Shown piece after piece: positions 18,423-60,581 of a stretch of 64,000 nt of DNA (positions within the stretch are counted from its first letter, which is position 1; each line of letters opens with the position of its first letter). The notes beneath the pieces are model-generated. The model had not been told where the DNA came from. It saw nothing but the letters and a program-made list of their open reading frames with translations, and made no database searches. The translations under genes were made by a program, and so were the position numbers. The stretch is from Antitrichia curtipendula (Eukaryota > Streptophyta > Bryopsida > Hypnales > Leucodontaceae), in NCBI GenBank assembly GCA_951230915.1, contig OX579642.1, forward strand, positions 2,542,001 to 2,606,000, in the 5' to 3' direction.

Positions 18423-18562
18423 CATGCATATATCAATGTCTTTGAATCCAATTAAAGATAAATACAAACTTTTGTTGTTTAGGGTTTATATACTTTGTAT
18501 GTCAAATAGGCATAAAAATCCACAAACTTTCAAAATTAGTCTTCACAAGCATTTCAAGGGCT

Positions 18563-33536: not shown

Positions 33537-34458
33537 CCCCTAAAGGTTTTTGACTATGTTTTCACCTAAAGCACTCCAAGATTGCCATTTATAGTATAAG
33601 TACCAAACTATATCCATAAGATCTTGTAGTACACTGGTATGAGAAGATGTCGAAAAAATTTCAGAAATTTCCACCATGTAGATAAATTGCAAAATATTAG
33701 CATTTGAAGTGGCAAAAATCCTTTTTTAGGGGCATGTGAAAAAACAGGCAGGTGCACTTCACAGGGTCACATTTGTATGAAAAAATGTCCAAAATGGTAG
33801 TGATTCTTTGAATTCATTTTTCATGGCAACTTAGCTATATACTTAATAAATTTCAGATCATTTGAAATTGTACAACATATAGGATAAAAATAGTGAGTAG
33901 AAAGATGTAGAGAATGCTTCAAAATACTAAATTGTTGATCATTTTTTTAAGGAATTGGAAAATGCTAATCCCAATGGTTGTAATGTTGCAATAAAAAATC
34001 TGCATCCTATGATTTAATTATTTTCCAAAAATACTGAAATTGAATTAAATAAAGGACTTCAAAGTTTATCTTAGAGTTGAAATTCCATAACTACCTACAA
34101 ACTACCCACAATTAAAATTCCTCGTAACTTTCATCTCAATTAATCAAAATGGAATGATTTAAAGCTTTTAACGTATTTATTAATCTAGAAAACCAATTTC
34201 AAATTTTTTTTTTTTTTTAAATGATTTAAAGAAAAGGTTGTTTGTTGCCCGCATTGCCTACACTTTGTTGAAAACTACATATCATAAAAGAACTCTTGAA
34301 CCATGTAGTCAAAAGTTATAAAAATTATTAGGCCTGAAAGATACTCTTCATGCACATTTTGTTTGAAAAAATCTTAAGAAAAAAAATAAAAATTCCATTC
34401 ATAGTGAGCTTCCCAAAATCGTTATATTGTCAAAAAACAGAGTTTAGGGCTTTAGGGG
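33537..34458. mobile_element. TTAA-flanked element, copy A (922 bp)
   Basis: It starts CCCCTAAAGG after TTAT (33533-33536) and ends CTTTAGGGG before TTAA (34459-34462); the left tetramer appears mutated. Internal words match the other copies: AAGATCTTGTAGTACA with a following CATGTAGA.AAATTGCAA segment on the left, and GTTGCCCGC on the right. It has no open frame of note. With a length of 922 bp it is almost the same size as the copy at 59654. See the findings for the superfamily argument. Confidence 0.6.
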
Positions 34459-35134
34459 TTAAGGTAGGAGCTGCTAAAGGCTTCCTCTAACATAGAATTA
34501 TATATTAGAGTTTTGGAATGTACCAAAGGTTTACATACCTCTATTAACCTTAGGTACTTGAATCTTTTTTTTGAATTTTTGCATATTTTTTCTTATATTT
34601 TTTAATAATATATATTATTTACCTCAATTTCATTAAATTCATCATATAGAAAGTGTGGTGTTTTGAAAGTCAAGCACTGATTTGGATAAATGGGGAGTTA
34701 TGTGATAAAAAAAAGCCTCTAAAACATCTCTATTCATTGTCCAAAATTGGACTACTAACTAGAGGTGTCAAAACCCTATGACATTTCAAATTCAAAAATC
34801 TATTTATAGAAAAAATTGTAGAAAAAATATTTCAAGGAATATAGCTTCCTTCAAAAGACAATTAGCTAATATAAACTTAGTCAATAGACCCTCTACGTTA
34901 AGTAAGGTTTCCACATCAAAGGATAAGGTATTAAAAAGCCATTTTTTTTAAATTGTGAAAGAATGTCATTTTTTGATGTATTATTAAAAATAAAATTTTA
35001 ATATTTTATTTCTTAAATTCAATCATAAAAAATTATATTAGACCATTATAATAAAGTGGGAAAAAATTTCAATTCATTTGACTAAATGAGTTGTAAAATT
35101 ATAACATTTAAAGTCAAAAAAGAAGTTTTTTTAA

Positions 35135-35707
35135 TCCCTAAAACCTCACTTGTCCCCTTGGGGGACAATTTGGGTCCGGGTAGGTTCCTATTGTCTCAAT
35201 TTGAAGTGAAATTTTTTGAGATTTTTTGAGGTTGTGTAGCTTTGCAAGAGCTTTGTGGATATATAATTTTTGTTTCAATCGGATGTCGGATGAAAATGTT
35301 ATGGCACAATGAGCAAGAAATGGAGATTGGCGGGCAGCCCCAAAAAAATTACAAAAAGTCAAAATAATTTTTTCTGAATTTTTTTCCTAAAATATTATGT
35401 TCTTACCTATACATGAAGCTTTGATTCATTCTATTTGGACTAGGAATGAGAATGTTATGGACAATCTTAGTTTTTCGAGCAATTTAAGCATCTTCTTGAA
35501 AAAAAACTTTTTGTTCAACTTTGATCTTTCAATCCGTACGGTCAAATTTGATGAAATTTTTACTACATGATCTCAGACAAGTTAAGTACAAGATCCTACT
35601 GTTAAATTCCCAAAAAAAACAAAAAAAAATGGTTTCCTTAAGTGAATACAGCAGAAGTGGTAGTTTTGAGTGTTTTTTGGCAGAAAACACCCTCGGGGTT
35701 TTAGGGG
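35135..35707. mobile_element. TTAA-flanked element, copy B (573 bp)
   Basis: It starts TCCCTAAAACC after TTAA (35131-35134) and ends GGTTTTAGGGG before TTAA (35708-35711). The left half carries TTGTCCCCTTGGGGGACAA and CAATCGG; the right half, as reverse complement, carries TGCCAAAAAACACTCAAAA, TAGGATCTTGTACTTAACT and TTTGACCGTA. Each of these matches the copy at 59654 closely, in the opposite orientation. It is shorter than the other copies by about 350 bp of internal sequence. Confidence 0.7.
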
Positions 35708-35869
35708 TTAAAACCTACTAGATATGATCAACAAACTTTGAGCCCTCATGGAGTGAAACTTTTGTTCTACTCAAATTTGCGATTACACAATTAAATACTG
35801 CATCTTGCTAGGTATATGCATGAAAAATTTCACAAACAAATATTAAAGGTTCTACCTCATTCTAAATCA

Positions 35870-36430
35870 TTGTGTAATACAAGGAGGTCAAGGAAATCAT
35901 CAATGCACTAACCATTCTAATTATCTTGTACATTGAGAACATTAATTTTCTTAAAATTCAACATAGTAATAATATAAAGCCAAACATCTAGAATACATAG
36001 AAAATTTTCAAGAACTTTGACTTCGTAGATTGCAACATTATAATGTTTGAAGTTTAAAAAATGAAAAAAATTTATCCAACTTGATAGGTTTAGCAAAGTT
36101 TACTTCCTCCCAAAGTGGAATTTTTATACAAAATAAAGTTTTTTTGGACAATTGCATTGTACATCATATTAGTTGCATAACTGTCAAATTTCAAAAGAAG
36201 ACTATGATTTTAGCACAAGTTGTCTAAAGTTGCTCAAATGGTCTAAATTTTTTCATGCATCTTAAGATTTGATCTAGGCACCTAATCAAAAATTAATTTC
36301 TTTTTTCCCACAAAGGGATCACATATCCACACCTTTTGTCAAAAAATTGAACTGATCCATTTAAATTCACTTTATGGAAACCTGAGGTGGGCATCCACCT
36401 CCTAAACCACACTTTGTCTAAAACTGGCAT
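35870..36430. mobile_element. Probable relic of the same TTAA element family
   Basis: The stretch GTAGATTGCAACATTATAAT near 36028 matches GTAGATTGCAAGATTATAAT of the copy at 55128, with related sequence around it. No termini or TTAA flanks could be fixed, so the limits are approximate. Confidence 0.35.
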
Positions 36431-37896
36431 CACTCTGTGTACATCTCCAAAATCAATATGTAGCTATGTGGAAGAAATGATTTCCAAACATCTACAAGAA
36501 AAAAACTTTAACCCTTCATAATTTTTGCATACTGTATCCAAATGTTGTGGTCTTTGATGCATTAGAACCTTCTTTCACTTCCCAACAATAAAATATGAAT
36601 TTATGATTAATCTAAAAATAATAATAAAAATATGCACAATAGCAAAAAGTGGCAATGCTTGGGGTACCCACCTTAGCCAAATTTTCAATCGTCCACAAAA
36701 CAGAAAAATAGGTCCTGTAGGGGTCATTTCCATGGAAAAAAATGCATTTGAAATTGCAGCAATAAAAAACATGGGAACTATCCTTTTCACACTTCTCGGA
36801 CTCTCTTGTTGGTTGCATCCAAATTGTTTACCTTCTCACCAGCATTCAGGATTTCTTTTTGGAATTTTGCCAGCAATTTTCCTTTACTTATCAACCACTT
36901 TTTCAAGTACCAAGTCCAACGTTTTCTATACTTTTGTACTCAACATAGAAATCTTCTCCGGGTTTTTTTCGATGTTTTCAAATTGAAACCATTTTTTTTC
37001 CCAATTCCCAAAAGTGGGTAAATGTGTTTTAAAAACATCAGACTGTAATCATGACTTTACACCCCATTGCCACAATTAATATATTTCCAAAACCTCATTT
37101 CATTTGTCGTACAAAGTCAACATACACAGAAATTGTGTACAAAAATTTACATACTCAAAATTGTGTATTTGAAATTGGCCCCAAATGAAGGAGCCAATTT
37201 AAATTAAAGTAGGAAGCTCTTAAAGTAACCCTTTTAAGAGCTGATTGCATTTTGGGGGAAGCTAAATTCCTTGGAACAATTTTTAGTAAATTTTACTAGG
37301 AAGAAAAATGGAATTGGCAACTAATCCAAGCCATTTCATATTTTTTGGACCTTTGTGGAATTAGTTACAAATTCTTGAAGTTGAAAAATGCAATAGTTTT
37401 CTAAAAGTGACCCCTCCTGAAATGTACAATGTTGGTACATTGAAGAAAGTAAAATGTACCTCCGTGTTAGAGGTTGCTTTCAGAGCCACCTACCTTGGAA
37501 GCTTCTTGAAAGGAAAGGCCACATCATCATTGAAACAATGGATAAAAAATAAATAAAAAATAAAGCACTGTTCTCACTAAAAGAGATATGAAGGTATTGA
37601 TATAAAAAGAAAAAGTTAAAGCTAATTGGATGAGGTTGCAGTGGATTAATCCAGATTCCAGTTGGTACAGCTTAACTGGTAGCCAGCCAGTTAAGATTCC
37701 TCATCCATCAGTCAGATCCTCATTCATCGGATTCCTCATCCATCAGATTCCTCATCCAGATCCTGGACAGAAATAGCAGGGCATGAATCTCGCCCTAGCT
37801 GTCCCTGCAGCCGTATTGTTGGGGGCATTTTTTTATTTCTATTTTTTTTCATTTTGTTTTTCATTTTGGAGAAGGAGCCTGTTGTTTCGCTTCAAA
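36431..37896. other. Spacer with a dispersed repeat copy; no gene recognised
   Basis: 37250-37430 is related to 21800-22000. 37690-37770 is a short low-complexity run of CATCCATCAG/TTCCTCATCC units. No coding region is supported. Confidence 0.45.
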
Positions 37897-37899
37897 ATT

Positions 37900-37975
37900 C
37901 TCATGTGATTCTCATGTGATACTCATGTGATACTCATGTGATACTCATGTGATACTCAAGTGATACTTGGTGATA
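37900..37975. repeat. 11-bp tandem repeat, about six copies
   Basis: CTCATGTGATA (first unit CTCATGTGATT) is repeated with the last units diverging to CTCAAGTGATA and CTTGGTGATA. It is a simple minisatellite. Confidence 0.9.
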
Positions 37976-38060
37976 TCTATTTGAAAATTAGGTGATACCC
38001 AAGTAAAAATTTAGTTAGCGGTCTCGAAATATATAGCAATAATTTGGCTATTTTGACCGT

Positions 38061-38380
38061 CCAAAATGAAGATTTCCTTTACAAAAAATAGCCAATAAAT
38101 ACAAATCACAGTTGGTTGGAATATGAACGAGAAGGAAGACTTGGGTGGCCACATATGATGGATCATGTTTGTGTGCACAAGGTCTCTAGATCAAATTGGG
38201 GTTTTGGGGTGTTCTTTTTAGTGCCAAAATGAAAATTTTCTTTACAAAAAATAATCAATAAATATAGATCATAGTTGGTTGGAACTTGAACTAGAGGAAA
38301 GACTTAGGTGGCTACATATAATGGATAGGATTTGTTTGCACAAGGTCTCTAGATCAAATTAGGGCTTTTCTTTTTGGCTT
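38061..38380. repeat. 163-bp tandem duplication, two copies
   Basis: Copies start at 38061 and 38224 with CCAAAATGAA. They share TTTACAAAAAATA, CATAGTTGGTTGGAA-like and CACAAGGTCTCTAGATCAAA. Divergence is appreciable, so the event is older than those at 18-20 kb. Confidence 0.8.
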
Positions 38381-38386
38381 ACTAGT

Positions 38387-40014
38387 GCTCACTGCACTAG
38401 AAAAATAATAATTTGGCTAAAAAATGGCAACAAATTGTAAATATTTTACTCAAAAACTTTGAATTAAAAATTGGCAACAAATCATGAAGTCTTAGATGAA
38501 ATTGCCAAATTGTGGATGAAAATAATATTATGGACATGTGATATGTGCTAATGTGATATTTTCTATCCAATTTGGAGCACCACTATAGTATTTTATATTG
38601 GCACTTTGGCACTTCATAAAAAATGAAAAAAAAACTCGATCAAGTCCGCAATAGAACATGACCTACAAGCTCATCCAATACTACATCATATGTGTTTATT
38701 GGAAGATGAAGTCAAATACATAATAAAAACTTGCAATCCATTGCTAAATAGTATCCTAATCTCTATAGTTCCCATATTAACCTTGTAACAACACAACCTA
38801 AAAGAGTCCAATGGATCTTTTTTTGTGAGACAAAAGTGCAATATTAATCTTTGAAAATTTGTGTGGAAAAGGGAGGTCTTGCACAATAGTTTGACCTCCA
38901 GTGAGTGCTCTTGTTTTTTTTAAGGTAAACGATTCACACAATACCCCAAAATGATGATTTCCATGGTGACCAGCCCAGCGTTCCAGAACTAAAATGGGTA
39001 AATTGCTCAAGGGTCTAGTAGGTTGAAGAAAGAAGAATCGCATTATGGCTCGATTTGATAACAAGCCTAAAAATTGAAGAGCAAGAATCACAAAGTCAAA
39101 CAGCCCTAAGGTCGGACCACCCATTACCAACCAAGGATGGATTTCCAACCTGTAGAGGTAAGCTAATTCCGACCAGGCAGATTTTTTTGAGAATCGCTAG
39201 ATTTAATGACATGCACGATACCCAAGGCTGCGAGGAGCAATTGCTAAATGCCACGTGTTAGTTTGAAATTTGTATACATGAGTAGGAAGTAGTCTCTTCT
39301 ATGATCGGAATTGCAAGACTCTACATATTGGGTATTAGTTCAGAACACTTTTTGCCTTCTAAAATTCACAGAAATTTCAGTTTTGCAAATAAAATTCTGA
39401 AAATTCTACAATCACAATATTTTCTATCTTCCTACATGGGAAAAAATTCCATTGCACTAAATAGTTCACCATTTTCTCTACAGATCCTTAAGTGATTAGG
39501 TATGGGTGGTCCTACCTTAGCTTGTGCTTTGCAGACAACTGTGTCGAGCTTCAACAGTGCTTTCACAAAAAGCACAGAATCTTTAAGAAGATATTAGAGG
39601 GAACCACATTCACCTACTCTCCTGCCATTCCCCATTATCTCATCTCAACAAACGGGGGATGCAACCTCCTCCACGTGTTTCATCAAGGCCTGGCGATGAA
39701 GAAATTTGCATGGAGAACGAATTTGCAACCTAAACCCGTCATCTTTTGTGCAAAGGGAATAGGGATACTTGAGTTTCATCAGTGAAACCTACTGTGCTTC
39801 CCATGTTGTCTTTCAAGCCATCTGTCAGCGAACTGATGAATCTAAGCTGATTACACAGAATTGGTGAATCTCTCTTGAATGGTGTGGTCCTATGAGATGA
39901 AGACATAATGCACCAATGGAGGCACACAGGCAGACTTCACCCTCTAATTCTGTAACTCAATTCGGCCTTGAATGTAGTATATATACCTATGAATGATTCC
40001 GATTTCCAGGCGAG
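38387..40014. other. No gene recognised (OSGEP 3' flank)
   Basis: Open frames here (for example minus strand 38798-39148) lack domains and codon bias. A 25-bp segment around AAAAAGCACAGAATCTTT at 39566 recurs at 42542 upstream of OSGEP. Confidence 0.45.
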
Positions 40015-42401
40015 TCATGTCGGTGCAGTATCTCGCCACACAGCGTGCACTTCATCTGTCCGGAACCGTTGCGTCACCGTGGTGTCTTCCATGGGTGTGT
40101 AATCCCCTTTGGCACACGCTAGCAGGCCAGTGTACGCAATCATAGCTCCGTTGTCAATACAGTAGCGCTCATCGGTTGCATAAAGATGACCCCCACGCTC
40201 TTCACACATAATTTGCATCATCTGTTGCAACCGTACGTTGCAACCAACACCGCCCACAATCAAGACGTCTGCCGTTCCGCAGTGAGCCATCGCCCTCTCG
40301 GTTATCTCCACCAGCATCGCAAACACAGTTTCCTGAGGAGAAGAGCCACAAAATTAAGGTCCAGGAGGAGTAGCAGGGTAGTCAGAAGTTCAGAGGAAAA
40401 TGTCCCTCGCGGTGCATTTCCTGCGTATCACTCTTGTCCTCAATTCCTCACCTCCTGTCGACATGTGTGAGTTTTTCTTTTAGTTTCTTCAAATCCTCCT
40501 CGGTATCATTTTAAGTGTTTTTCTTCATTTTCTCCTTCTATCTTCATCTGAGTCATCGCTGAATTCTTCCGAGTCAGTCTCTTCCTTATCCTTTCCTTTC
40601 CTTTCCGGTGTAATCTAAGTTCAATTTTTACTGGCTGACTGTAGGACTACACCATCCATCTATAAACTCAAGACCTTGTAGCGAATCAACGACAACCAGA
40701 CTTAGAGAATTAGTGTCACATTCTCAACCCAACTCGACAAAACACAAGTGCTTTAACCCCTAAACTCGACCTTCATGTCTTTTGAGTAAGTCATATAAAT
40801 CTTTCTTTTGTTCAGTTTCATTTATTATCTCACCAACAAATACAATGCTCCTCTGATTCTAGTGATATAAAATTTAACCCTATTCGAATTATACTGTTCA
40901 CAGTGGGATAAACCAAACTGGTCATTTTAAAATGATGAATCTTTGGTCCTTCAGAAGGCTAAGATATTACAAGGCTACTTAAAGCTAGCAAACGGTAACA
41001 GTTCCCTCGTGAGATCTGCAATTCTCTAGGAGAACAGGAAGAGAAGAGAGTGACATTAAAAAAAATCGAAATAGAAGATGAGTGAGATGCTAAACCTGCA
41101 ACGAGAAGCATAGGTCCGCAGGAGTGATTTCATTGGCAGGAAGGGTACGGACTGCAAGCTCTTCAACAAAGCTGAGGAGGCCACTAAAAGAGACATCCAT
41201 CCCCTTCACCACATACGGTAGCTCTACGAGCTTGTTGCCCTTTTTAGCGAGCTGCAAAGATGCCATTCCAAATGACTACATGAGGACCTTGCACTGGATT
41301 ATATGCACAGCAGCAAAGCCACGAAAGAGCCATGTACGGTGGTAATGAACATGATTAAACCTGCTCAATATTGTACCCAGGACTGGGATCATTTGAAATC
41401 TTCAAAACTCGGGCAAATCTATCCAAGCAGTTTCCAACTGCTATGTCAACTGTCTCCCCAAAAATCCTGTACCTGCCTTCACTATAAGCTATGACCTGCA
41501 AGAAAAGAAAAGTTCTCAGTCCAGACCCCCAAACCAAACTAACAATTATGCTTCTTCGCTCACCCTATGACTATGACTATGACATAAAATAGATGTTCCA
41601 ATTCCACGATGGCTCTTAATACACATTCATCATAGACAAAAACAAATAAAACTCATCCAAACTCCACTTCGCATTAGACACCACAAAGATAAGGTAGATA
41701 GAGGTGCCTAATAGCAACACATAGCTAAATGCAACACTCTAAAATCTTGCACAGTGAGTACATATAGACCTTGAGAACGCACACCACCTTGACATGAGAA
41801 ACTCCATCGCTTTTCAGTAATCTACCAATACAACATTGAGCCTTATAACTATTGCATAAAGTACCCAAATATTACATCCGTTGGTGCATTGGGATCCTCT
41901 TGCTATTGCTAACAAGAATCAATAGGAACTAAGTTACAATCAGTGCTTAAAGTGTCCTTCCATCTAATTTTTTTTTTAATCAGTACGCACCTGAGTGTTG
42001 CCGCCACTAACGTAGAGTACCACAGGATCCTTAGCTCCAGTGACGACTCGCCCCATCTCAATGTGCCCCACGCAATGGTTCACGCCCACAATCGGCTTCC
42101 CCCAAAGTTGTGCCAACACCCTCACCACAATGGCCGAGACTTGCAACGGCGCGCCCATGCCAGGGCCTTTGGTATAGCACAAACAATCGATGTCTGTGGG
42201 AGTTAGATTCGCCTCCTTCAGCGCATCATGTACAAGCCCCAGTGCATGCGCGTGGTGATGCTCAGCCGTGTGCCGTGGCAGAAACCCGTGCCCGGGAGGC
42301 GTGATGTAAGTGTGACGAGGATTGGCAAGAATGTTGCCATCGGCGTCCACGATTCCCACGCCTATCTTGTTCGCTGAGCTTTCCAAGCCCAGCGCTATCA
42401 T
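40015..42401 (-). CDS. OSGEP: tRNA N6-adenosine threonylcarbamoyltransferase (KEOPS subunit Kae1)
   Basis: OSGEP/Kae1 transfers threonylcarbamoyl to A37 of ANN-decoding tRNAs (t6A) within the cytosolic KEOPS complex. Exons: 41991-42401, 41361-41495, 41096-41251 and 40015-40332. All are phase 0 with GT-AG introns, giving 339 residues (human protein 335). The metal-binding HTAEHHHAH, the GPGMGAPL loop, [36 protein letters not shown] and [12 protein letters not shown] are all present, so the enzyme looks intact. It lacks an organelle targeting extension, so it is the cytosolic form, not the mitochondrial OSGEPL/Qri7. About 210 bp upstream of its start lies a truncated inverted copy of SFT2 exon 1 and its promoter, which may influence its transcription. 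Confidence 0.96.
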
Positions 42402-42612
42402 CGTGACCCCGTTCCGTAATCACAAACCCCAAATCAAAAAAAGCTCTACTATCAGCTAAAACCCCAAATCCTCTGTCTGTAAGACCGCACCTGTTCTGAG
42501 CTCCTGCGAAACCACTTCGCCCACCAAATTCTGGAATCTAAAAAGCACAGAATCTTTGAGGAGACGCGTAGACTAAAGAAAAGCTCCTGAAGTGTAATTT
42601 TGACGTTGAAAC

Positions 42613-43015: not shown

Positions 43016-43503
43016 GGGCATTTGCAATGCAGCCCCTGTATATGGCCTGATATCGGTATAACTAACTTTTGAACTGTAAATAATTAGAACTTGAAAATTG
43101 TCTCATTGGAAGCGCATCTGAAAAAACTTGGTGAAGGTTCAAGAAAATTCAAAATTCAACATTGGACAAGTACTTCAAAAACAAGGTAAAAATTTGAAAT
43201 TATAGAGGTCTTAGCAAATCACGGTTACCAAAGCAACATTTGGCCATTGACCCTCCAAATGTGGGGGGTCAATGGCCAAATGTTGCTTTGGTAACCGTGA
43301 TTTGCTAAGACCTCTATAATTTCAGTTTTTTACCTTGCTTTTGAAGTACTTGTCCAATGTTGAATTTTGAATTTTCTTGAACCTTCACCAAGTTTTTTCA
43401 GATGCGCTTTCAATGAGACAATTTTCAAGTTCTAATTATTTACAGTTCAAAAGTTAGTTATACTGATATCGGGCCATATACAGGGGCTGCATTGCAAATG
43501 CTC
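43016..43503. mobile_element. PIF/Harbinger-type foldback MITE (488 bp)
   Basis: Two arms of about 240 bp are nearly perfect reverse complements. The termini are GGGCATTTGCAATGCAG and GAGCATTTGCAATGCAG (read inward). TTA target duplications lie at 43013-43015 and 43504-43506. The duplicated arm at 46.6 kb preserves the empty site with a single TTA, which proves the boundaries. It has no coding capacity. Confidence 0.93.
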
Positions 43504-44090: not shown

Positions 44091-44388
44091 AGGGTGTTTT
44101 GAGTGTAAAATGTAAAATACTTAATTGATAAATATTCACACCAATCTCTATTGCTATTTGCTACAAAAAATATAATTAGGATAATTTTCACAAAATGAAT
44201 TGAATTGTTTAATAGTTAATAGTGATAGACAATCCATAAATTTATATTTAAAAAATATGAGATTGCTATTTAAATGCAATTTAAAGGCTAATTAGCTCAA
44301 TATGATGTTTAACTATTTCACAATGAATTTGGTCCTTTATGGGTTAATTGTTTGTAGTAATTGCATCCTTGTAAATTTAACACTTAAA

Positions 44389-46138
44389 GTTATGTTATTT
44401 CTTTCAAAGTGACATTTTTATAAACCTTTAAAGGACAAGCTTAGCCCCTTGGGCTTCAATTGGATTTGAGAATGGTTCACAAAAAAGAAAAATTGTGGTT
44501 ATTTGGAATGTTCAACCTAGTGGACCTACTTCTATAATAAATATGGTTTGCCAACCACCGCATTTTTGCTTCAAAGTCAAAGCACTACAATATTCATTAT
44601 TCACTTTGCATATCTTGACTGTACGAACTTTTGGCAAGCAATAAGCTCTATACCCTACTTCAAGGGGATTTTTTATTCCCCTTTGAGTTGTCTTCTAGGC
44701 AAGTGAACGTCTTTTAAAGGTTAACTTTTTCATTGAAAGAAGAGTGGGAGTTGCATCTAATCAACCTTTTTAGTAGCTTTGTCCCCTTGTGGTATTAGTT
44801 ATGAATCTTCAAAGTAAAATTCTTGTATGCATTTATTTGTATTCACTAGTAGAAAGGTGGTCTTAGAGCACAAGGCTATAATGTAAGAGCTTGGGCTACA
44901 AGACCACGTTTTCTTCTAGTGGTTTGGAAGAGAAAGAGGGGGGGAGGAGCAAAAAATCATTCACCACTTGATCTTGAAATGAATATTGAGGGACTCAAAA
45001 ATGATCTCAATGTACCTAGAAATGGATTCAAAAAAATTCGTAATATTTTTTTATTCCAATGTTTTTTCTAATACATTTGAATAAATCTTTAAAGGTAAAA
45101 AATAAACAAAAGCTGAAATGTGGCATTAATTGATTTTTGTTTTTCAACCTTCATATTTCTTTTTGCTTAACTCTAATGATAAATTTGATTGAAAATTTTA
45201 CCTTGAAAAAACAAGATCTGTCAACAAGGTAGTCAACAAAAAATGATGTAAGTAGTAAATGAATAGGTGCATTCTTTCTTTCCAAGGGAGCTTAAAAGTC
45301 ATTCATCTTACATTGTATGCAAGGGATTAACATCTCAATTCATTCATCCTCATGGATTTGTACAATTTTTTGTTTATAATTGCATACAAATGTATAATTA
45401 TTTGTGTCAAATTCATCAAATTTGTCAAAAAAAAGGTCATCTTTTAACAATTTTAGAATTGCTTAAGATGGACAAAAAAGTACCTGGATGGAATATAGGC
45501 ATGAAGTTTTGTAGTCATCTTGTAGAATATGAATACTGGAAAGTTAGGAATTAATCTTTAAAGGTTTTTGTAGGATTGTATATTACAATACTTTAATTGA
45601 GTCCTAGAATATGAATTATGTACTAAAATATGACAAAATGTACAACATTGGATTGATAAGTCTATGATTTAAAATATATTTTTTAGTAGAAGTTATTTTT
45701 ACATCTAATCTTTATTAGGTTCAACTACATTTCTATACTCATAGAATACATGACCATTTTTTAGCTTGTAAGACATGAGGGAGGTTCAATAATGATCCCA
45801 ATAGGGAATGCAACAATGATAATTGGATTTAGTTCAACATGAATACAAACTTTTGTTACTAGTATATATGTCAATCTATACACCTTCTAAATCATATTCA
45901 CAAAAACATTATCATATTTGTAGTGGAAGTTGGTTGAAAAAGATTTTTTTAAATTGATGTCAATATTTTAGAAATTTTTATTTAAAATAAATTAAATAAA
46001 ATGATAAGAAAAAAACATTTGAAAAAATAATTCTATTTTTAATATATGCCAAATTTTTTTTCTAAGAAAAAAAATGGTAAAAAGGTGCCTCGCCCTACAT
46101 TTATAGGATATTGAATCCAAACTTTGATTCCCTAGACC
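44389..46138. other. Spacer between inverted arms, no gene recognised
   Basis: This is AT-rich. It contains the mini CACTA-like element at 44844-44921 and a single relative of the 63-bp repeat near 45835. No coding region is supported. Confidence 0.5.
44844..44921. mobile_element. Miniature CACTA-like element (78 bp)
   Basis: It starts CACTAGTAGAAAGGTGGTCT and ends with the complement of CACTAGAAGAAAACGTGGTC. The CACTAG.AGAAA end matches the terminus of the large element at 8216. The 3-bp flanks are ATT and GTT, one mismatch from a target duplication. Confidence 0.6.
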
Positions 46139-47053
46139 TTTTAGTGTTAAATTTATAAAGATGCAATTACTACAAACAATTAACCCATAAAGGACCAAAT
46201 TCATTGTGAAATAGTTAAACATCATCTTGAGCTAATTAGCCTTTAAATTGCATTTAAATAGCAATCTCATATTTTTAAAATATAATTTTATGGATTGTCT
46301 ATCACTATTAACTATTAAACAATTCAATTCATTTTGTAAATATTATCTTAATTATATTTTTTGTAGCAAAATTTTTAAAAAAAAAATTAAAAAACCCTAT
46401 AATTAAAATGAATTTTTTTGAAGAGGTACAAGTAGTAATAGAGACTTGTGTGAATATTTATCAATTAAATATTTTATATTTTACACTCAAAAAACCCTAG
46501 CTAGTAATCTTCAAATCTTTACCAGGATTGAAAGTTATTAGATTCCCTTTACAGTCTGCTAGAAATCACCGACTGTACCGCCAAACTCTTTTAGCCTCTT
46601 CCTGTAACCCTAATTCTGTTTCTGCAAGTCTCACCTACTTCCCCTTGTCACTATCCTCCCTTTCTCAAGGCAGCATTGATTGCCACCTGGTGTCAATGCT
46701 ATCCGTGTCATCGTCTTCACGATCGGGCAGCAGCTTGCGCGATTCAAAACTGTGCGTGAGAGCCTTTACACTAAGCTTTCGTTGAGCGGGAGGAGTGTTC
46801 ATGGTGGATGCCATTAAGGGAGTCACGAGCGGATAAGTATCAGCTTGCGCGATTCGAAACGGTGCCTGGATTGCGTTTTTACTAAGCTTTTGTTGAAGGG
46901 GAGTGTGGGGAGTGTCAGTGCACGGTGGATGCTTTTGTTGAGGGCATCGGAGAAGCGAAAGGAGTGGCAACATGCAAGGATGGTTTGCAGGACCGAGCAG
47001 CAAGGCGCAGGGTGGGAAGGAGGGCGGCTCGTTGCTGGCGGATTGGAACTCGT
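46139..47053 (+). repeat. Inverted duplication arm 2 (SFT2 promoter, leader and first codons)
   Basis: This is the native copy, continuous with the functional SFT2 gene. The homologous part ends in exon 1 after codon 27. It lacks the MITE and the TIR element found in arm 1. Confidence 0.85.
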
Positions 47054-49714: not shown

Positions 49715-52028
49715 AAATGGAAGACGAGGGTCACACCTTGCTATTTGGGCATGGGATCTCAGGAAGCCTGGCTCAGTTGAATCTACACAAGAGATGCTTG
49801 TGGTGCGTGACTGCCTCCTTTTACTGGCAGTCGCTCGACCCCACAAAAGTAAGACCTGCGCGATGAGTTGTTAGAGCTTTCAGGACACCGAGATTTTACA
49901 ACTTTTGATTTGTTGTAACTCGCATGTTCTAAGATTTTTCGTTCATGTTTTTGCAATAGGCGGATGATCTTCTTTGGAGGTCACGACGATTAAACCGCCT
50001 GAGCACGAACTCAAGGGATGTTTCATGAGAGCAGATAAAGCACATGACGTATTGTGCGAGCCTTTCTTTACAGTAAATTGTCGATACCGTAGTGTGGACT
50101 GTCAAAATCGTTCTAGTGTTGCTCTGGTATTACATGTAACTTTAAGTTTTACGATTTTCGTACCAATAATTATCATAGACTGCATTAAACGCTTTTTTTT
50201 TAATTATCAAATACTGACAGTGCCAGTACTTATTATTAAATATATTTATAAATCATAAACTTGATAATTTGGTGCAGATTCAAATTATGCAAAATTTGAC
50301 GACAATATGAAAATAAATTCTATGCATATCAACTAAATTGGTCTTTTTAGGACTGGAGTATGGTACATGGTGTTATCTAGTCATATTAGAGGTTACTTTG
50401 TACTAGGATGTACAACATTTTAAATTCTCAAATCCTTGTCAAATAGGTTGGGGGTATTTATTAAAACCATTTCCTTCATTGTAGATGTAGAGAAAATATA
50501 CACCATTTCCTTCCTTGTGTTGATGTAATAATTTTTCTTTCAATCCAAAGTCAACAAAACACATATTCATGAACATTGTTGAAGGACATTGTTGAAGGAA
50601 CAATATAGAGAAATCATGAGTAAAGAAAATATTAGAACAATTCATTCATTGGAAGAGAATGGAAGACATCTAAGATTACATATCTAAGCTATGCTAATAT
50701 TTTGTCTTTGTTCCAAAATTAAAAAATGTATGTAGGATCTTTGAAAATATTCAATTTTATACATATTTATAAATTCTTCAATAATCTAGTAGTACAATAA
50801 TAATTGAAATTGATCAAAATTGCTAGTATAAATTGTTTATATAGCAACAACAACCTTTAAATCAAAAATTCTTTTCAATTGAACGTTCAAATTTTTTAAT
50901 TTTTTGTATGCAAAATAGCAATAAAATAAATGTAGAAATAATTGGAGCAACAAAGTAACAACTTTTGTCTCCAAAATGAGTGGAAATTGAGACTATGATT
51001 GTTTACAAATGATGAAATAAAAAATTCACTTAGACTACTCTATCCATTTAAGCTTTATATGAAAAATTGCATTTTTTCCTATGCCATTTGACAATCTTTG
51101 ATTGTATTTTTGACATGCCTAAGTACAACATTTATACTTATATATATTTTTTCAAATATTCTAAATTATTCAATTTTCTTCTTAAAGTGATTGGGTCTTG
51201 CCATGATGTCAAAATGTCACCTATTTTCTTCAATAAAAATTTATATTATTTCTCAAAACTTTACACATTACATTGATATTGGCTTGTAATTATTAATTTG
51301 ATTAATTTGGAGTGCAAAATGAGTGTCACTACAAAATCAATGACATTACTAAAGAATAATGAAAATTATTAAAATACATTAATTTTTCAACTTGCACTAG
51401 TTAAAAATAGCATGACTTTGGTATTTACAAGTTCCATGACCATATATGAGCATCCTACTAGTGAAGCAAAGTTGCAAAATTAGTCTGACCTACACAATTG
51501 GTGCCACTACAAATTTTTATTTTTTTGCAATTTAATTTAGTACTAATTTAAATCATGAACTAATTTAAAACAATTTGACTTCAATAAATAAGTTTGTCAC
51601 GCAAGACATTGGTTTATTGTATCGGTAAAGGTGCGAAACTAGTGCCACTTGCAAAATTAATATCATTATAGTTCTCATTCTTTTTATTAGAATGAGTTAA
51701 TTTATTGCGATGTATCTTTGGTAAAATTAGTGTCACGCCACAAACTTTATCTTACTACAGTGGGTGCAAAATTAGTGTCACTTGCAAAATTAGTGTCTCT
51801 ATAGTTTTTATTCTTTTCATGAATCTGCACTACTAAGATAAATCATTGTAATACAACAAATCATCCAGGGTACTTGCAACCTCGTGGAAGAGATGAAGTA
51901 GCCAGCATAGAGAGCGTGACTTGGAAAAGGACCATGAAATCCCATAAACCCTTTGGATAACTCCATCGTCTTCCTCGAATTCTGTTTTCTCATCAGTTTT
52001 CTTCACAATTGCAGCAATTGGCGCAGCT
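49715..52028. other. SFT2 3' flank and CPP1-like 5' flank; no gene recognised
   Basis: The stretch is AT-rich. A direct repeat of about 55 bp (ACTTGCAAAATTA..., near 51640 and 51775) lies within 400 bp of the next gene's start. No other feature is supported. Confidence 0.45.
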
Positions 52029-52982
52029 ATGGCGTCTTGCAGCTGCTTCTCCACCTCCCAAGCCACTCTTCTCTCCTCCCGAACTCCTCCTTCAACTTCC
52101 TCATCCCTCCCACCCTCCTCTCTCCCGCTCTCATCTCTCAGGCTCGCATCTCCTCGTCACATTCCGCTTCGTGTTCGGAATTTAGGACTCTCCTCCTCCT
52201 CGCCACCTCGGAGATGTCGCATCCGTTGCAGCAGTGCGTCTGGAGCTTCTGCCGGATCAGGCGAAGGCTCTGTTCCGGAGAGTCCTTACTTGACACTCGG
52301 TGTGAGCGCCTTGGAGAAGTTCGAGGTGATCAAGGCTGCGTATACTCGGAGGCGTAAGGACGCGGAGAAGCGTGGGGATGAGGGGACAGTGGAGCGGCTG
52401 GAGAAAGCTTATGATAAGATTATGATGATGCAGTTGTCGAACCGGAAGCAAGGGTTGGCGTTTGGTGGCCAGTTTGCGGTGTCGAAGGAGATTAAGTACG
52501 CGGACAAACGGTCCTGGTTTCCCTGGGGTCCGAAGAAGGCGCCCGTGGAGAAGCGAGAGGTTTTGATTAATCTGGCGATTTCGGTGCTGTTTTCGGCGTG
52601 GATTGCGGTCGTGGGAGGGCAGGCGGAGTGGAAGCCGCTGCAGTTCATGATCTTTTTGTATATTTATCGTCTTTTTAACAAGCTGAAGGAGTTTGAGCCT
52701 TCGGCGGTGACGGTGAGCTATGAGGAGGAGGAGGAGGGCGAAGAAGGAGGGGGGAGACGGGAGGAGAGCGGCATGAGGCTGAAGAATGGGAAACGCTTGC
52801 TGCGGACGTTAGGGTTAGTGTTTAGCTGTGTGGCGGTTGCGTCTCTGGCTTATACGGGGATCTTGAATGCGTTTGAACTTGCGGGGCAGTATATTCCGAG
52901 AGCGTTCATGGGAGCGCAGGAGCTTTTTGTCACGGGCGTCACGGCCGCTGGTCTCTTCATCATCGCTTCGTTCTTCAGGTGA
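52029..52982 (+). CDS. CPP1-like plastid protein (DUF3353, J-like domain)
   Basis: This is an intronless frame of 317 codons. The first ~75 residues are Ser/Arg/Pro-rich without acids, as in a chloroplast transit peptide. A J-like domain follows (SPYLTLGVSALEKFEVIKAA, then LEKAYDKIMMMQL) without the HPD motif, then KEIKYADKRSWFPWGPKKAP. Four hydrophobic stretches match membrane helices near residues 180-200, 205-220, 260-280 and 295-315, ending FIIASFFR. This is the layout of the DUF3353 family, which includes CHAPERONE-LIKE PROTEIN OF POR1 at the thylakoid and envelope. Wording is closest to the longer DUF3353 paralogues rather than CPP1 itself, so I give no symbol. An acidic EEEEEGEEGGG loop is notable. 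The sequence is strikingly GC-rich for the window. Confidence 0.9.
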   Translation: MASCSCFSTSQATLLSSRTPPSTSSSLPPSSLPLSSLRLASPRHIPLRVRNLGLSSSSPPRRCRIRCSSASGASAGSGEGSVPESPYLTLGVSALEKFEVIKAAYTRRRKDAEKRGDEGTVERLEKAYDKIMMMQLSNRKQGLAFGGQFAVSKEIKYADKRSWFPWGPKKAPVEKREVLINLAISVLFSAWIAVVGGQAEWKPLQFMIFLYIYRLFNKLKEFEPSAVTVSYEEEEEGEEGGGRREESGMRLKNGKRLLRTLGLVFSCVAVASLAYTGILNAFELAGQYIPRAFMGAQELFVTGVTAAGLFIIASFFR

Positions 52983-53742: not shown

Positions 53743-54837
53743 GGATGAAATTTTTTCGTTTCAGTTTTGGTGATTCAGAAGTGCTCATTCTAAAGGAAGA
53801 GTTTTTTCTAAAGCCATTCGATTGATCAGAGAGGAACTTTGTTACCAATTTGTTACCAATGTTACCAAAGGGGATTTTAATGCACCTGATTATTTATTAT
53901 TTGAATATAGTATGGTAAAGTTATGATTGTTCAAAGTTTTTTTTTGTGCAGGTGTTTTGGTAGTTGGTGTCTAGTCTCTTGAATATGTACTTGTGTAACT
54001 GTGTGAGACTTTGGGGGGTTGGAAATCAGGATGTTGTTGGAATTAGATTCTCCTATCTTGTTCTAGATTTTTGTACCTCAAAGGAATTGGAACACTGCAC
54101 AGTAGGGTTCAATAATCTTACAAACTGCATATTGTGCCATTCAATGAATTTTTATTATCTTAATACAATTTGCATTTTTTTTTTGCATGATTAATGTTCA
54201 ATTTTATGCAATTCTAGTCAAGCATACTAAATTTCAATTTCAAAAAATTAAAACTTCATTTTTGGTGAATTGTTTCATTTGATATTCATGGTTTTATATG
54301 ATAATTGATTGAAAAACATTGGTGATGAATTTTTTTAATTCAATTGCATAGATATGTGGAAAACATGCATACACACATCTTTTCTTCAACAAGCACCTCC
54401 AAAAAAGATAGGATATTTTGCAAGTCTTAGATTAATTGAGGACAATTGGCTACATCTATTACAATTGGCTACAAACTTACTATATTGATCATTACAAAGT
54501 ATCTCCTTTACATGGGTTGATACATTATGCATTCTTAGTTTTAAAGAATTTGTTCTCTATTAGTATATAGACTATCATTCTTTTCATTTGTAATATTTGA
54601 GTTATGCTAAAGTCATCCTTTGTATTCCCACCTTGTGAAGTTTCTCACTTTTCAAGTCCAACAAGTATGTTTTTGGATTTAATCTCCAAAATATATTTTG
54701 GAAAAGATAAATAAATAATAGTTTAAAGGTCATTTAATGACTTTTTGTTATGTATAATTTTTGCACTCCTAAAAACTACTTTAGATTTTATTTAGTTCAA
54801 ATTCAATATAAATCAATTCATAAATATGAACCAAAAT
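53743..54837. other. No gene recognised
   Basis: This is AT-rich spacer downstream of the tRNA. No supported feature. Confidence 0.5.
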
Positions 54838-55127
54838 AAGATGACAATAGTGATTCCTGGATGTCCACCAACAGCAAGCAAATCTACCTCTACATTCAAC
54901 AACCATGAGAGCATTTTAGTATAATTTAGAACAAAACAAACAAATTTTAATAGAATTTTTTTTTAAATTTTAATATTAATAACATAATTTGATGTTTTTA
55001 AAATTTTGGATTTTCATAATAAAATATGATTTCATTAATACAAAATTATTTTATAATGCAAGAAGATATATTTTATAATCTGTACTTAAATTGAATGATG
55101 TATCTTTTACCAGAACTTTCATTTTAA

Positions 55128-56093
55128 CCCTAGACCGCCCATGGCCGTTTTGGGTAAAAAACATCCTAGCTTTTGAAGTGCTATAAATCTAAATGTGACT
55201 AAGTAATAAAGATCTTAACCGTACAATCATGTAGTAAACATGTTGCAGATGTCATGGATCAAATTTGAAGTCATTTGACCGTGTAGATTGCAAGATTATA
55301 ATGTTTTAGTGTTGAAAAAGAATACTGAAATTTTCCTAGAAACACATTTAGAGGCCAAATTTGATTTCTAAACCTAATCAAATGAAAAAACTTTAAACTA
55401 CAAAGTGATTCAAACCAGGATACAAACACATTGGTGAAAAAAATATCATTCAATTGACTCAATGTGTTTGCAAAATGGCTTGCAAATGTCAAAAATAGGC
55501 AAGAAAAGTTGCAAAAAACACATCTAGGGCTGAACCTCCTTCTACTAAAATGCTTTTCATTCATTCATAAATTCTTGGATTGATATGAAAATTTACCCAC
55601 ACAAACTAGACTAGTATGCGCAACTTTTACAAAAATAATTATTGAAAATGGACATTTTATGAAGAAGATACAAGCCGCCAAAGTTCACTATAGTCCATAA
55701 ATGGCGGAATTTTGAATTTTGAATTGCTCCCAAACATTCAAAACAACTTGGATCGATACGAAAATTTCACCACAATAACTAGAATTCAAGGGAAACACAA
55801 CCCAACAAATTTTATTGAAATCGAACATTGGATGAAGGAGATACAAGACCCCAAAGTTGCAGCCATGAAGTGCACTTTGGTGAATCAAATTGAGCCTGTG
55901 AACTTTGATTGGCTTCTTGAAAATCATTACCTCTTGGATTAATCTGAAAATTTTACCACACAGACTAGAAGAAAAGGCTCAACTTTCCCAACAAGTTTTA
56001 TTGAATTTGGACATTGGATGCAAAAGTTACAGTATTTTGAATTTAACTTAAAACTATGTGAGGACACTTTTTGTCCTCTTGGGCGGTCTAGGG
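55128..56093. mobile_element. TTAA-flanked element, copy C (966 bp)
   Basis: It starts CCCTAGACCGCCCA and ends with its exact reverse complement (14 bp). TTAA copies lie at 55124-55127 and 56094-56097. Removing the element and one TTAA restores an uninterrupted malate dehydrogenase-like frame. Internal similarity to the copy at 59654 includes AAGATCTTAACCGTACAA and TTTGACCGTGTAGATTGCAA. It has no transposase frame. Confidence 0.88.
55574..56045. repeat. Three internal ~180-bp repeats in copy C
   Basis: Units start at 55574, 55748 and 55933 with CTTGGATTGATATGAAAATT or close variants. Each contains an ACTAGA core, a CCAACAA.TTTTATTGAA segment and GGACATTGGATG-like words, then GATACAAG/GTTACAG. 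Similarity is moderate. The repeats are entirely inside the element. Confidence 0.7.
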
Positions 56094-56822
56094 TTAATGG
56101 CATAGAAAGCACAAACTACATCAAGAGTAGTTACACCAAATAACCTTTTAGGATCATACGTTCTAGCTTTTTTGAATACTTCAGCTACAATAGGGACTAT
56201 TGAATTTACAGAATTGCTAATAATGTTCACTAAAGCTTTAGTGCAATGCTTTGCAATACTTGTGCATAAGCTTTGTACAATGCTAGTGTTGACATTAAAC
56301 AATTCATTGTGGGTCATTCTAGGTTTGCATGGCATTCCCGATGGAATAATGATGAGGTTGCATCCTTGTAGAGGAAAAACATGCCATTTGGGCCTTTCGA
56401 TGTATAAAATTATTGTTTAAATAGTTATATAATCTTTTTCTTGTATAGTTTAAAACAAAAAGACTTATTCCAAATGTATTGAAAATGCTTTGGCAATTCA
56501 TATGCACTCAGAGGTGTCCAATACGTCTAAAATTAATATTTTGTCTATATTAATTATCAAAAAAATTGGAGATAACGGATTTATCAAAGATTTCATGTGT
56601 CAAATTGAAGTGTCAATTCACTTGAGTATTGGCATGACTAATGTCACATGCAACACCCGGTGTTCCGGCAATATCAAACAACCTCAAATCGGAAACAAGA
56701 AGATTGAGCTTCATCAACAACCCTAATGGTTGACCAATTCCTCTAGCAACTCTTAACACTGTCACTGTTCGTTTTTCACGAGTCCATTGTTGTTGTACAT
56801 TAGCACAAACATTGCAACTCAA

Positions 56823-58228
56823 TGTACGGGGAGTACCGGCATTTAGTTACAAGTTAGCCGGTTGAAAATCAAGAATTGCCTAATTGATTTCAAAATCTTT
56901 GAAAAAACTCGATCATTTAAAAGAAAATCAAAGAATATTCTCTATTTTTTAAAGGCCTAGCCAAGAGAATGCTTCAAACAATGGTTTGATCTGAAAAAAT
57001 GTAGGATTTTAGCCAGTTGACCTAAAAATCTCCCCAGACTGTGTTGTAAGCTTGTTCATGGATTCTCGGTGCAAAATTGCAACTACATCTCATGAATGTC
57101 ATCATATCCATTACACTTTTGAAAATTATTTGTAAATAAAAAATGGATGTATATTGTTCATTTTGTAGTAATAGTACTAGAAATTGTATCCTTATCACTA
57201 TTGATCAATTTCTTACAGTCAACAAACAATTTTTACAAATCCATATACAAGGTTCGATAAATCTTGCATAGTAATTGCTATTAAAATTTTCAAAAATAAG
57301 ATCTTTAAACTATCCCAAAAATTTAGAAGTTAGTTGTTTGTTATTGAGTTAAATTAATTTTTTCGGTATTTACTTTACAGTTGGCATGAACCACATATTG
57401 GCAATTATTAGTCAAACGGATAGTGAGGCAGAGTGCTCATCATTCAAAATGTAATTAATTTTTATTTCAATCCCCACCCCCTCCAACTATACTTGTATTT
57501 TTTGGACCAACTTGTTTGGGCAAACAATATGGTTTAATGGCTTATGTATTTCATATCCATATATTTGTGTATGTATCCGTATCCATATCCATATTGTACC
57601 ATATCTCATATTGTATCTCAAAATGTTCTTGTATCTATATCTGTATCCGTATTTTTTATTTTTTAAGATCGATGGTGTTGGAGGGGGAGAGGGGAATTAT
57701 TATTTTTAAATCAATGGCTCTCATTTATTTACAGTGAGGGGGGTGGGATGGGGTTGTGTTAATTGAAACCAAGTGTGCCACATCTTTTCACTAGATAGTT
57801 GATAATCAAATAGAGAAGAGTTTAGGTACTTTGATGTTATTAGTGTGCACAAAGGCTTCAAAAGCATTCACTTATTAGAGTACCAAAAAGTTTATGACTA
57901 CAAGTATGTAAATACATCTTATTTCACACATGTCAAATATTCAAAAAACATTATAGTTTTAAGAAGAAAAGGAACTACATGCAAAAGGTTATAGATTTAA
58001 AATTGATGATATTACAAATGCAATGTTTGGATAAAGTACAAGTATTATATTTGAAGTCATGGTTACTACGATGTGAGCCTAGGATCATGAACACAAGAGC
58101 ATAGGAGTCTATACACCTATTTTAGGTGTCTATGTTATAAAAAATCTATGATTATAGGTTATCTATGTTATAGATACCTATATTATAAGTGTTTATGTTA
58201 TTAACACCTTCAATGCTTGTAGGATGTC

Positions 58229-58278
<50 letters not shown>

Positions 58279-59649
58279 CTCATATGCTCGCATTTTTGTA
58301 CTATCATTGTTGTGCTTGAAGCTATCTTTCCAAGTTATTTTTTGAAAGTTAAAGTCTATGCAACTTTTGCAAATATGTGTGTATATGTATATTAGATTTT
58401 TATGTACAAATTAATTATCACATGAAAAAAACCTTTTATTAATGTTTATTTTTTGTAAAATAAATATCATTTATTATCTTTTTTAAACCTCAAAAGCACT
58501 AGTAGGTCTAAATTAGGCATTATAGTTTTAAACTAATTTTGACTAAAACATATATTGTATGGAATTTTGTTGTCAAATTTCATTTAGTTTTTGTATCTAA
58601 TGTTTTTTTGGTTGATTATTGCATGATCTATATCAGTTTTTAAATATATGATCATTTGAATAAATCATTTTTAAACCACATTTTTTGGGTCATTTTAGAA
58701 CAAGGAATTTATTTACAAAATAAATTATTACATAAAGAGATTTTGTTTTTAAATTTTAACTACATAGATTTTTAAATTGATTAGATCAAGTAGAACAATG
58801 TAATAAAATTCAAGCATTTAGTTAAATGTTTCAAAAATATTTTGCAAACAAAATTGAAGATTTATTTATGTTAAAGATGTTTGTCTATGTATCTTTTAAT
58901 TACAAACTATACAAAAGATAAATGCCAATCATATAGAAATTAAATTTTTCATTTAAAACTAAATTTAATAAAAAATTCATTATTAGTTTTATATATCAAA
59001 ACTTAATCCTAAGATTTTCAAAAAGTACAAAAATATTAAGTCTTAAATGGCTCCTCCAACTAAAAAAATGGTCTGAAAGATAGCACATGTAGCTCATGGA
59101 CTTGATTTTGTCAACACAAAAATTGTACCAAAAGAATTGGTATGTGCAATACTTTCAGGCATTGCATGTGCTATACCATGGAAGATGATCCATCTCAATG
59201 AGCGACGCAAAGTAGTAAGATTTTACTGTAGTTGCAGATGAATAATTATGGTATATATAACAAAAGTAAGCATGTTTTAATGAAGCACAATCAATACTTA
59301 GATGCTAGATAACTAAATAAAATATAATTGTTTAATTATGTATATAATGTGATATTTTAATTTGCAACATAAATGATTAATATTTTTTGTTTTATTATTT
59401 TTGAACTTTTTAAAATTCAGTTAAAACTAAAAAAATAATAATAAAAATAAAATTTTGACATCCACTTTTAGTGATATTTTCTATTGAAGTTGCTACCTAA
59501 GTACAATAATAAATTTTCTATCAAAGTTGCTATATAAATACAATAATAATTTTTTATAGAATGAATCACATATTATTTAAATCATTGACGGGATGTCAAA
59601 AACTTTGAGTTGAATTACTTTTGAAATTGATTTGAGTAAGTTGCACTCT
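56823..59649. other. No gene recognised
   Basis: This is AT-rich spacer. It includes a (TA)n run at 58232-58275 and runs of TATCCATATCC/TGTATC words at 57555-57655. No coding region is supported. Confidence 0.5.
58232..58275. repeat. (TA)n microsatellite
   Basis: About 22 uninterrupted TA units. A second, shorter run lies at 60903-60922 after an A-rich CAAAAA repeat. Confidence 0.95.
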
Positions 59650-59653
59650 TTAA

Positions 59654-60577
59654 CCCCTAAAGGACCAAGGCCTATTTTGTGCCAAAAAACACTCAAAATT
59701 GTCATTTCTATAGCAAAGAGTAAAAGAAAATTAAATTTTTTTTCTTGCACATCTAACTATAGGATCTTACACCTAACTAGAATGAAAATGTGTAGAAATT
59801 TTTTTAGAATTTTTGACCGCACAGATTGCAAGATACCTGCATTTAAAGTGAAAAAAACAAGTTTTTTCAAACATTGCGGGACTAGATTTTTTGACTTTGA
59901 ACATTTTTAACGTAAATTTTTTGCACTACAAAGTTTTGAGCTTTAAATATTTATAGTAGAGAATTGAGTTGAGAGTCTAGGAAACAAAAAGAAATTAAAA
60001 AAAAACTAATTTTCATTCTTCAAAAAAATTGTTAATTAGAAGTAAATACAAGATAGAAGGAAAATCTAATATATTGATATCTTTTAGATGGAATTAAAAT
60101 GCACTAATCCCAATGGTGAGATTGTTCTATCAAGCAAACTAAACCATGCAAAACTTTTTTTTTTGAAAAATCGCAAAAATTGCATTCAGAAATGAATACT
60201 ACAAGTTGTTGCTTTTTTGAGAAGATGCTCTAATTGCCCAAAAAACAAGATTGTCCATAACTTCCTCATAACAAATCCAAATGAAATGAATCAAATCTTA
60301 CCAAATAGACAAAATTATAATCTATGAGAAAAAAAATTAAAAATTTTAAACTAAAATTTTTGCAAATTGTTTTTGTTGCCCGCTCTCTCTTGTTTTGAGC
60401 TTATTTGGGCATAACTTTTGTTACCGGGCACCGATTGAAAAAAAATTATATTCCCACTAAACTAATAAATCTTTCTATCTTCCAAAAAAGTTTCAAAAAA
60501 TCAAGACAAAATTTCAGCCCGTAGGTACATGCCCAAAATCTCATTTATCCCCCAAAGGGACATTGGTTCTTTAGGGG
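59654..60577. mobile_element. TTAA-flanked element, copy D (924 bp)
   Basis: It starts CCCCTAAAGGACCAA after TTAA (59650-59653) and ends with the complement of CCCCTAAAGAACCAA before TTAA (60578-60581), one mismatch in 15. The interior includes TGCCAAAAAACACTCAAAA and TAGGATCTTACACCTAACT on the left and, as reverse complement, TGTCCCTTTGGGGGATAAAT on the right, all shared with copy B. There is no protein-coding frame. Confidence 0.8.
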
Positions 60578-60581
60578 TTAA

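Follow-up and report, generated by a model that had tools for sequence, protein, structure and literature searches.

TTAA-flanked miniature elements of piggyBac type and candidate transposase-bearing partners in the moss Antitrichia curtipendula

Which transposase could have placed four short elements with inverted ends at TTAA sites in the genome of a moss? The elements lie in a 64,000-nucleotide stretch of Antitrichia curtipendula DNA, called the window here (C10:2542001-2606000 of a 400-Mb assembly). A sequence-only reading had assigned them, from their ends and target site, to one family of piggyBac miniature inverted-repeat transposable elements (MITEs), with a partner transposase predicted elsewhere. 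According to our results, the four elements are almost certainly miniature, nonautonomous MITEs of the piggyBac superfamily in the moss nuclear genome, inserted at TTAA by a transposase encoded elsewhere.

The four elements, their families and their target sites

The positions and inverted ends first described for the four copies were recovered, and so were their flanks, with seven of the eight tetramers reading TTAA and the eighth TTAT (Table 1). When the inverted ends were compared, all 14 bases matched in copy 3, one of 14 was mismatched in copy 4, three were mismatched in copy 2, and 9 bases matched in copy 1. The consensus of the c2 family, to which copy 2 is 95% identical, is 580 bp long and has a perfect 14-bp terminal inverted repeat (TIR), CCCCTAAAACCCCG. 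The first two bases are 5'-CC in three of the four window copies; copy 2 starts with 5'-TC and its consensus with CC. The window was also scanned for pairs of TTAA-like sites enclosing inverted ends of 14 bases, no more than 3 of them mismatched, with an end G/C count of at least 4 and at least one flank being exactly TTAA, and 40 pairs survived. Among them, only copies 3 (no mismatch) and 4 (one mismatch) combined TTAA on both sides with at most 1 mismatch and at least 8 G/C. Copy 2 was one of the 40 pairs, with 3 mismatches, and copy 1 was absent because only 9 of its end bases match. As the earlier reading had it, the copies carry no transposase: no frame of at least 110 codons lies wholly inside any of them, and the final 40 bp of copy 3 are part of a frame of that size. 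The elements thus have the features of MITEs, being under about 1 kb (573-966 bp), devoid of a transposase, delimited by defined ends and dispersed in many copies, with 40 scored places for each copy.

The relatedness of the four copies was then compared. Copies 2 and 4 are 66-69% identical over 354 and 185 bp, in inverted orientation, and the consensi of the c1, c2 and c4 families show a mutual identity of 57-73% over pieces of at least 200 bp. Copy 3 resembles copy 2, and likewise a transposase-bearing element, only over subterminal stretches of about 165-195 bp at 61-64%; it contains internal tandem repeats. Judged by these alignments, copies 1, 2 and 4 are related, and copy 3 belongs to a distinct family, which has a candidate partner of its own (L128, see below). 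The claim of shared internal sequence therefore held for copies 1, 2 and 4 and failed for copy 3, and the grouping of all four into one family had to be given up. Directly adjoining copy 3, at 56094-56416 on the minus strand, lies a fragment that was read by eye as malate dehydrogenase-like, and copy 3 may have inserted into or beside such a pseudogene.

To examine the families genome-wide, each copy was used as a DNA query, and the best 40 of the first-look candidates, mostly full-length, were scored; candidate numbers are not copy numbers. Copy 1 (best 40 of 8480 candidates) had 39 further places at 78-83% identity, and copy 4 (best 40 of 10214) had 39 at 85-87%. The best 40 of 4562 candidates for copy 2 were, besides copy 2 itself, 92-94% identical to it. 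For copy 3 (best 40 of 2999), 39 further full or near-full places were found at 95-96%, together with two partial rows at 76-81%. The 17-mer TTAACCCCTAAAGGACC occurs 6648 times in the genome (3318 + 3330 on the two strands), versus 0 + 0 for a reversed-pattern control, and TTAACCCTAGACCGCCCA occurs 339 times (176 + 163), again versus 0 + 0. The end patterns are thus not due to chance, and these counts of exact ends are a floor for the number of ends.

The flanking tetramers of 58 copies were tabulated. These copies came from the tops of the hit lists, irrespective of their flanks, and comprised 28 of the 40 c2 places (window copy 2 included) and 10 of the 40 places for each of c1, c3 and c4 (window copies 1, 3 and 4 excluded). 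This genome-wide tabulation, which had been proposed as a check on the piggyBac assignment, gave TTAA on both sides in 49 of the 58 copies, including all 10 of the c1 family. Two more copies had identical noncanonical pairs, one TTAT/TTAT and the other ATAA/ATAA; the two tetramers are reverse complements of each other, and each is one base off TTAA. The agreement of the two sides in both noncanonical pairs points to a tetramer that stems from duplication of the target and does not belong to the element. Empty sites were sought for 29 joined insertion sites (28 distinct, since window copy 2 was counted twice). In a comparison with the window and the fetched loci, an alignment through the junction was obtained for only two, and both counterparts had a single TTAA. 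One is a c2 element nested in a c4 element (L010), where all 10 of the fetched c4 copies show one TTAA in a 356-bp alignment at 75-77%; the other is a paralogous site within the window (L017; Table 1). The 4-bp TTAA target-site duplication that is a hallmark of piggyBac was thus found both in the flanks and at the empty sites.

piggyBac transposases and elements with the same termini

PF13843 (DDE_Tnp_1_7), run against the moss genome, gave 116 scored matches out of 907 candidates, all 116 above the curated cut-off (best E value, 5.1e-80), and none of 14 control genomes was matched by the same search. By manual count, the matched stretch was free of stops in 72 of the 116. Among the 30 best loci, the pairwise identity of the domain ranged from 32% up, with a median of 42%, and two groups of 9 and 21 loci were separated at 40%. 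Four Asp columns of the DE..D..D..D type, presumably the catalytic residues of piggyBac transposase, stood out when 51 rows were aligned, with Asp in 51/51, 50/51, 50/50 and 49/50 rows, and the C-terminal domain was cysteine rich, with three Cys columns conserved in 47/47, 47/48 and 46/48 rows. An open frame of 476-483 codons lies upstream of the PF13843 domain. The frames of L029, L062 and L128 matched the structures 6x67 (labelled 'Transposase') and 9c0f (labelled 'piggyBat transposase') with E values of 2.9e-20 to 3.7e-26; we take 6x67 and 6x68 to be piggyBac of T. ni and 9c0f to be piggyBat of a bat. The nearest homologues, among 120 listed, were 70% identical or lower. In a quick tree with a midpoint root (53 rows, now including L064, which was outside the 51-row alignment), 32 moss transposases and 8 further proteins formed one group with a support of 99 in the Shimodaira-Hasegawa-like approximate likelihood ratio test (SH-aLRT). 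On the opposite side stood 12 of the 13 other rows, the remaining row, P0120, joining weakly, and the moss group excluded the only three animal proteins in the set that carried names.

A transposase-bearing element with MITE-like ends was found at L062 on contig C1. It is 7.0 kb long (188-7169), runs from TTAA-CCCCTAAAGGACCAGCC to GAAGGAACTTTAGGGG-TTAA and contains a single frame of 967 codons. L065 (C9) contains a second copy, with 99.2% identity over 6998 bp; the similarity is bounded exactly by the TTAAs, and the flanks are unrelated. The c1 consensus aligned to both ends of L062, over 215 bp at 64% and over 429 bp at 67% (3' end; E value, 1.5e-51), and the c4 and c2 consensi aligned to its right end (67% and 65%, respectively). 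The left end of another element, L064, was closer to the c1 consensus (73%). Near the piggyBac transposase frame of L064, at 486-2192, there are about a dozen tandem units of about 145 bp, and a related array is present in its second copy, L067.

The candidate partner of copy 3, L128, was found through the end pattern of copy 3: among the first 100 places listed, one pair, on C1, was 4.87 kb apart in the correct orientation. The element at 44-4907 is 4.9 kb long, has TTAA on both sides and CCCTAGACCGCCCAAG at both ends, and contains a frame of 972 codons with PF13843. In the tree, this candidate partner of copy 3 belonged to one deep lineage and that of copies 1, 2 and 4 to another. Another transposase locus, L108, ends in CCCTAGACTGCCCATG, which is one base off the left end of copy 3 over 16 bases, and related ends occur on other transposase elements, e.g., CCCCTCAACGCCCC and CCCCTGAGCGCC; at L032, L035 and L054, the element ends seen were right ends. 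TIRs starting with CCC are therefore present in the MITEs, in L062/L065 and in L128, and at L062 and L128 a DDD transposase is bounded by the same termini. The partner predicted by the sequence-only reading thus has two candidates in the moss genome itself, and piggyBac membership is now supported by the TTAA flanks, the CCC ends and transposase-bearing elements with these termini together.

Some loci were tried as partners and rejected. The c4-like sequence adjoining the transposase in L048, L055 and L036 is nested in a 7.4-kb repeat with inverted arms of about 830 bp and is not the end of the element itself, and the TIR at L063 was considered doubtful (13 of 16 bases). As a separate observation, L059, L060 and L061 hold a repeat of about 7.4 kb, 98-99% identical among the three loci, with inverted arms of about 830 bp (in L060, 686 bp up to the point where the locus end cuts the arm). 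It contains a piggyBac transposase frame, a nested c4-like MITE and, on the opposite strand, a frame for a TET/JBP-like 2-oxoglutarate-Fe(II) (2OG-Fe(II)) oxygenase (PF20515; E value, 4.1e-44, tested in L060). A gene resembling those for DNA-modifying enzymes, carried along with a transposase in a plant, would be of interest.

Weighing the piggyBac assignment and present mobility

In the mechanism that we propose, piggyBac transposases from elements of the L062/L064 and L128 types would bind the CCC ends in trans, excise the MITEs and insert them at TTAA, which is duplicated. Copies 1, 2 and 4 would be paired with the L062/L064 transposase group and copy 3 with L128, from the second, deeply diverged group. 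Excision may be seamless, and movement may continue at the present day. The alignment of c1 to L062 suggests that the MITEs could have arisen from elements that lost their interior and kept both ends.

Several observations weigh against this interpretation. The target-site tetramers differ on one side in 7 of the 58 copies (TTAA/TTAG twice, TAAA/TTAA, AGGT/TTAA, TTAA/TCAA, TCAA/TTAA and TTAA/GGTA), as they do in window copy 1. The MITEs resemble L062 only at the ends, at 64-67%, and could therefore stem from an element other than L062. L064 is closer at the left end, but no right end of L064 turned up in the stretch that was read (second copy, L067). In the second L062 copy, the transposase frame contains one TGA (L056), and the frames of L062 and L128 were defined from stop to stop. 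Because L128 is a single-copy element, its boundaries are set solely by TIRs and TTAAs. Around the 30 best transposase loci, a GGG(G)TTAA right end occurred within 1.5 kb downstream of the domain at only 9, with a right end at 5 of 20 more loci, and none of the 30 had a left end of the CCC type in the 1.5 kb upstream of the domain. No CCC-ended pair was found within 1.5 kb of the domain at any of these 30 loci, whose flanks were too short for such pairs.

How far the moss elements still move is a question of its own. The MITEs and transposases could be piggyBac by descent but no longer mobile, which agrees with our interpretation in everything except present activity, and we regard this as nearly an even prospect. 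It would fit the divergence of c2 copies from their consensus (2.1-4.5%), the identity of copies 1 and 4 (81% and 87%, respectively) to consensi built from ten relatives each, and the stop found in 44 of the 116 transposase matches. On the other hand, the two L062 copies differ by 0.8%, the c3 copies remain 95-96% identical to the window copy, and the majority of the transposase matches are stop-free, as counted above. Because of the near identity of the L062 pair and the identity within the c3 family, the piggyBac population in the moss was probably active recently. The stronger proposition, that the moss hosts a diverse, native and still mobile population made up of transposases from two deep lineages, full-length elements whose frames are long and MITEs by the thousand that are moved in trans, seems to us evenly balanced between true and false.

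It is very improbable that the MITEs merely converged on piggyBac-like ends and were moved by an unrelated transposase. The end-confined similarity to L062 would allow it, and so would the sequence common to copy 3 and L128, which amounts to only 30 and 21 bp at the two ends. However, c1 matches L062 at either end, with a long and highly significant alignment on the 3' side; L128 combines the copy 3 TIR at both ends with TTAA and a transposase frame; and the two noncanonical duplications, each one base from TTAA and reverse complements of each other, also speak against convergence. Still harder to credit is an origin from Kolobok, the other superfamily known for TTAA duplications. A passage of PMC9587614 describes TTAA duplications for Kolobok too, but gives its termini as 5'-RR and YY-3', whereas the moss elements have 5'-CC and GG-3' by consensus, and the elements with MITE termini encode PF13843 transposases; this judgement covers the termini and the partner transposases. 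Contamination of the plant assembly by animal DNA, which the sequence-only reading had named as a possible refutation, can practically be dismissed even though piggyBac is best known from animals (a passage of PMC12732532), since the copies sit on a 25.4-Mb contig with a moss-like chloroplast-protein gene between copies 2 and 3, c4 copies were present on each of contigs C1-C10 among the places listed, and the tree separates the transposases from the three animal proteins with names.

Host, neighbouring features and place among known systems

Table 1. Positions of the elements, their flanks and related features in the window
Feature	Position	Strand	Remarks
Copy 1, 922-bp nonautonomous piggyBac element, c1 family	33537..34458	+	ends CCCCTAAAG; flanks TTAT / TTAA
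Copy 1 left flank, TTAT	33533..33536		sole exception among eight flanks
Copy 1 right target-site tetramer, TTAA	34459..34462
Copy 2, 573-bp nonautonomous piggyBac element, c2 family	35135..35707	+
Copy 2 target-site duplication, TTAA	left 35131..35134, right 35708..35711
Copy 3, 966-bp nonautonomous piggyBac element, c3 family	55128..56093	+	perfect 14-bp TIR CCCTAGACCGCCCA
Copy 3 target-site duplication, TTAA	left 55124..55127, right 56094..56097
Copy 4, 924-bp nonautonomous piggyBac element, c4 family	59654..60577	+	ends CCCCTAAAGGACCA / CCCCTAAAGAACCA
Copy 4 target-site duplication, TTAA	left 59650..59653, right 60578..60581
Paralogous empty site of L017 (c2-family insertion)	23662..23873	-	one TTAA vs two; 76%, only 30 bases past junction
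CHLOROPLAST J-LIKE DOMAIN 1 protein gene (stop-to-stop frame)	51948..52982	+	between copies 2 and 3

The host DNA is most likely moss, as judged from one gene, that for CHLOROPLAST J-LIKE DOMAIN 1. The nearest named relatives of its frame are from Ceratodon purpureus (64% over 92%) and Physcomitrium patens (75% over 68%), followed by Sphagnum compactum (56%), liverworts and ferns (48-57%) and angiosperms; other matches, up to 96%, rank above the named ones. Elsewhere in the window, Transposase_21/tnp2, DUF4218 and DUF4216 domains occur in three frames at 433-6885, which we take to be the remains of a CACTA (En/Spm)-like transposon. In-frame tandem repeats with a unit of about 63 bp lie at 18097-18432, a TsaD/Kae1 domain frame (tRNA threonylcarbamoyltransferase; E value, 4.2e-33) lies at 41976-42419 on the minus strand, and a near-perfect, foldback-like palindrome of about 120 bp was read by eye at 43200-43320. 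An inverted repeat at 44216-46311 was rejected as an element of the kind studied here; its TTAA-CCCATAAAGGACC motifs lie within the arms and point outward, and the arms are about 2 kb apart.

piggyBac-type MITEs of animals are short, lack a transposase, are flanked by TTAA, reach high copy numbers and have ends in common with a transposase-bearing element. The moss MITEs are likewise short, TTAA flanked and numerous, and the c1 ends are common with L062; they differ in occurring in a land plant and in forming several families in one genome (c1, c2 and c4 related, c3 distinct). With the piggyBac systems that we take the structures above to represent (6x67/6x68 from T. ni and 9c0f from a bat), the moss elements share the TTAA duplication, the CCC-type ends, a PF13843 transposase, the conserved Asp residues and the Cys-rich C terminus, whereas the host is a moss and the elements, of 4.9 and 7.0 kb, have frames of 972 and 967 codons. 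For comparison, intact beetle piggyBac elements are given as 2074-3465 bp and about 500-725 amino acids in passages of PMC12732532.

The superfamily had been called rare or unreported in land plants. "Unreported" held only in part: PiggyBac is named as an angiosperm MITE superfamily in one review (PMC10004981) and as a plant DNA-transposon superfamily in another (PMC10794571), and a fern repeat table counts 1230 PiggyBac pieces (PMC6890710). A search of open-licence literature by titles and abstract starts turned up no report of a native piggyBac transposase from a moss or another land plant. The elements described here are thus a known kind of element in a hardly documented host, a finding that is surprising and well supported, and they are not a new kind of system.

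The host range of piggyBac is extended to a land plant by transposase evidence, not by ends alone. Plant-native transposases with defined TIRs are thereby on offer for tool use; a title in the reference list of PMC12732532 refers to a piggyBac tool brought into plants from an animal. Inheritance of piggyBac within bryophytes versus its horizontal transfer becomes testable. If the moss does host a native and still mobile population, a land plant would have a functioning endogenous piggyBac system, which could be ancient in bryophytes or gained by horizontal transfer.

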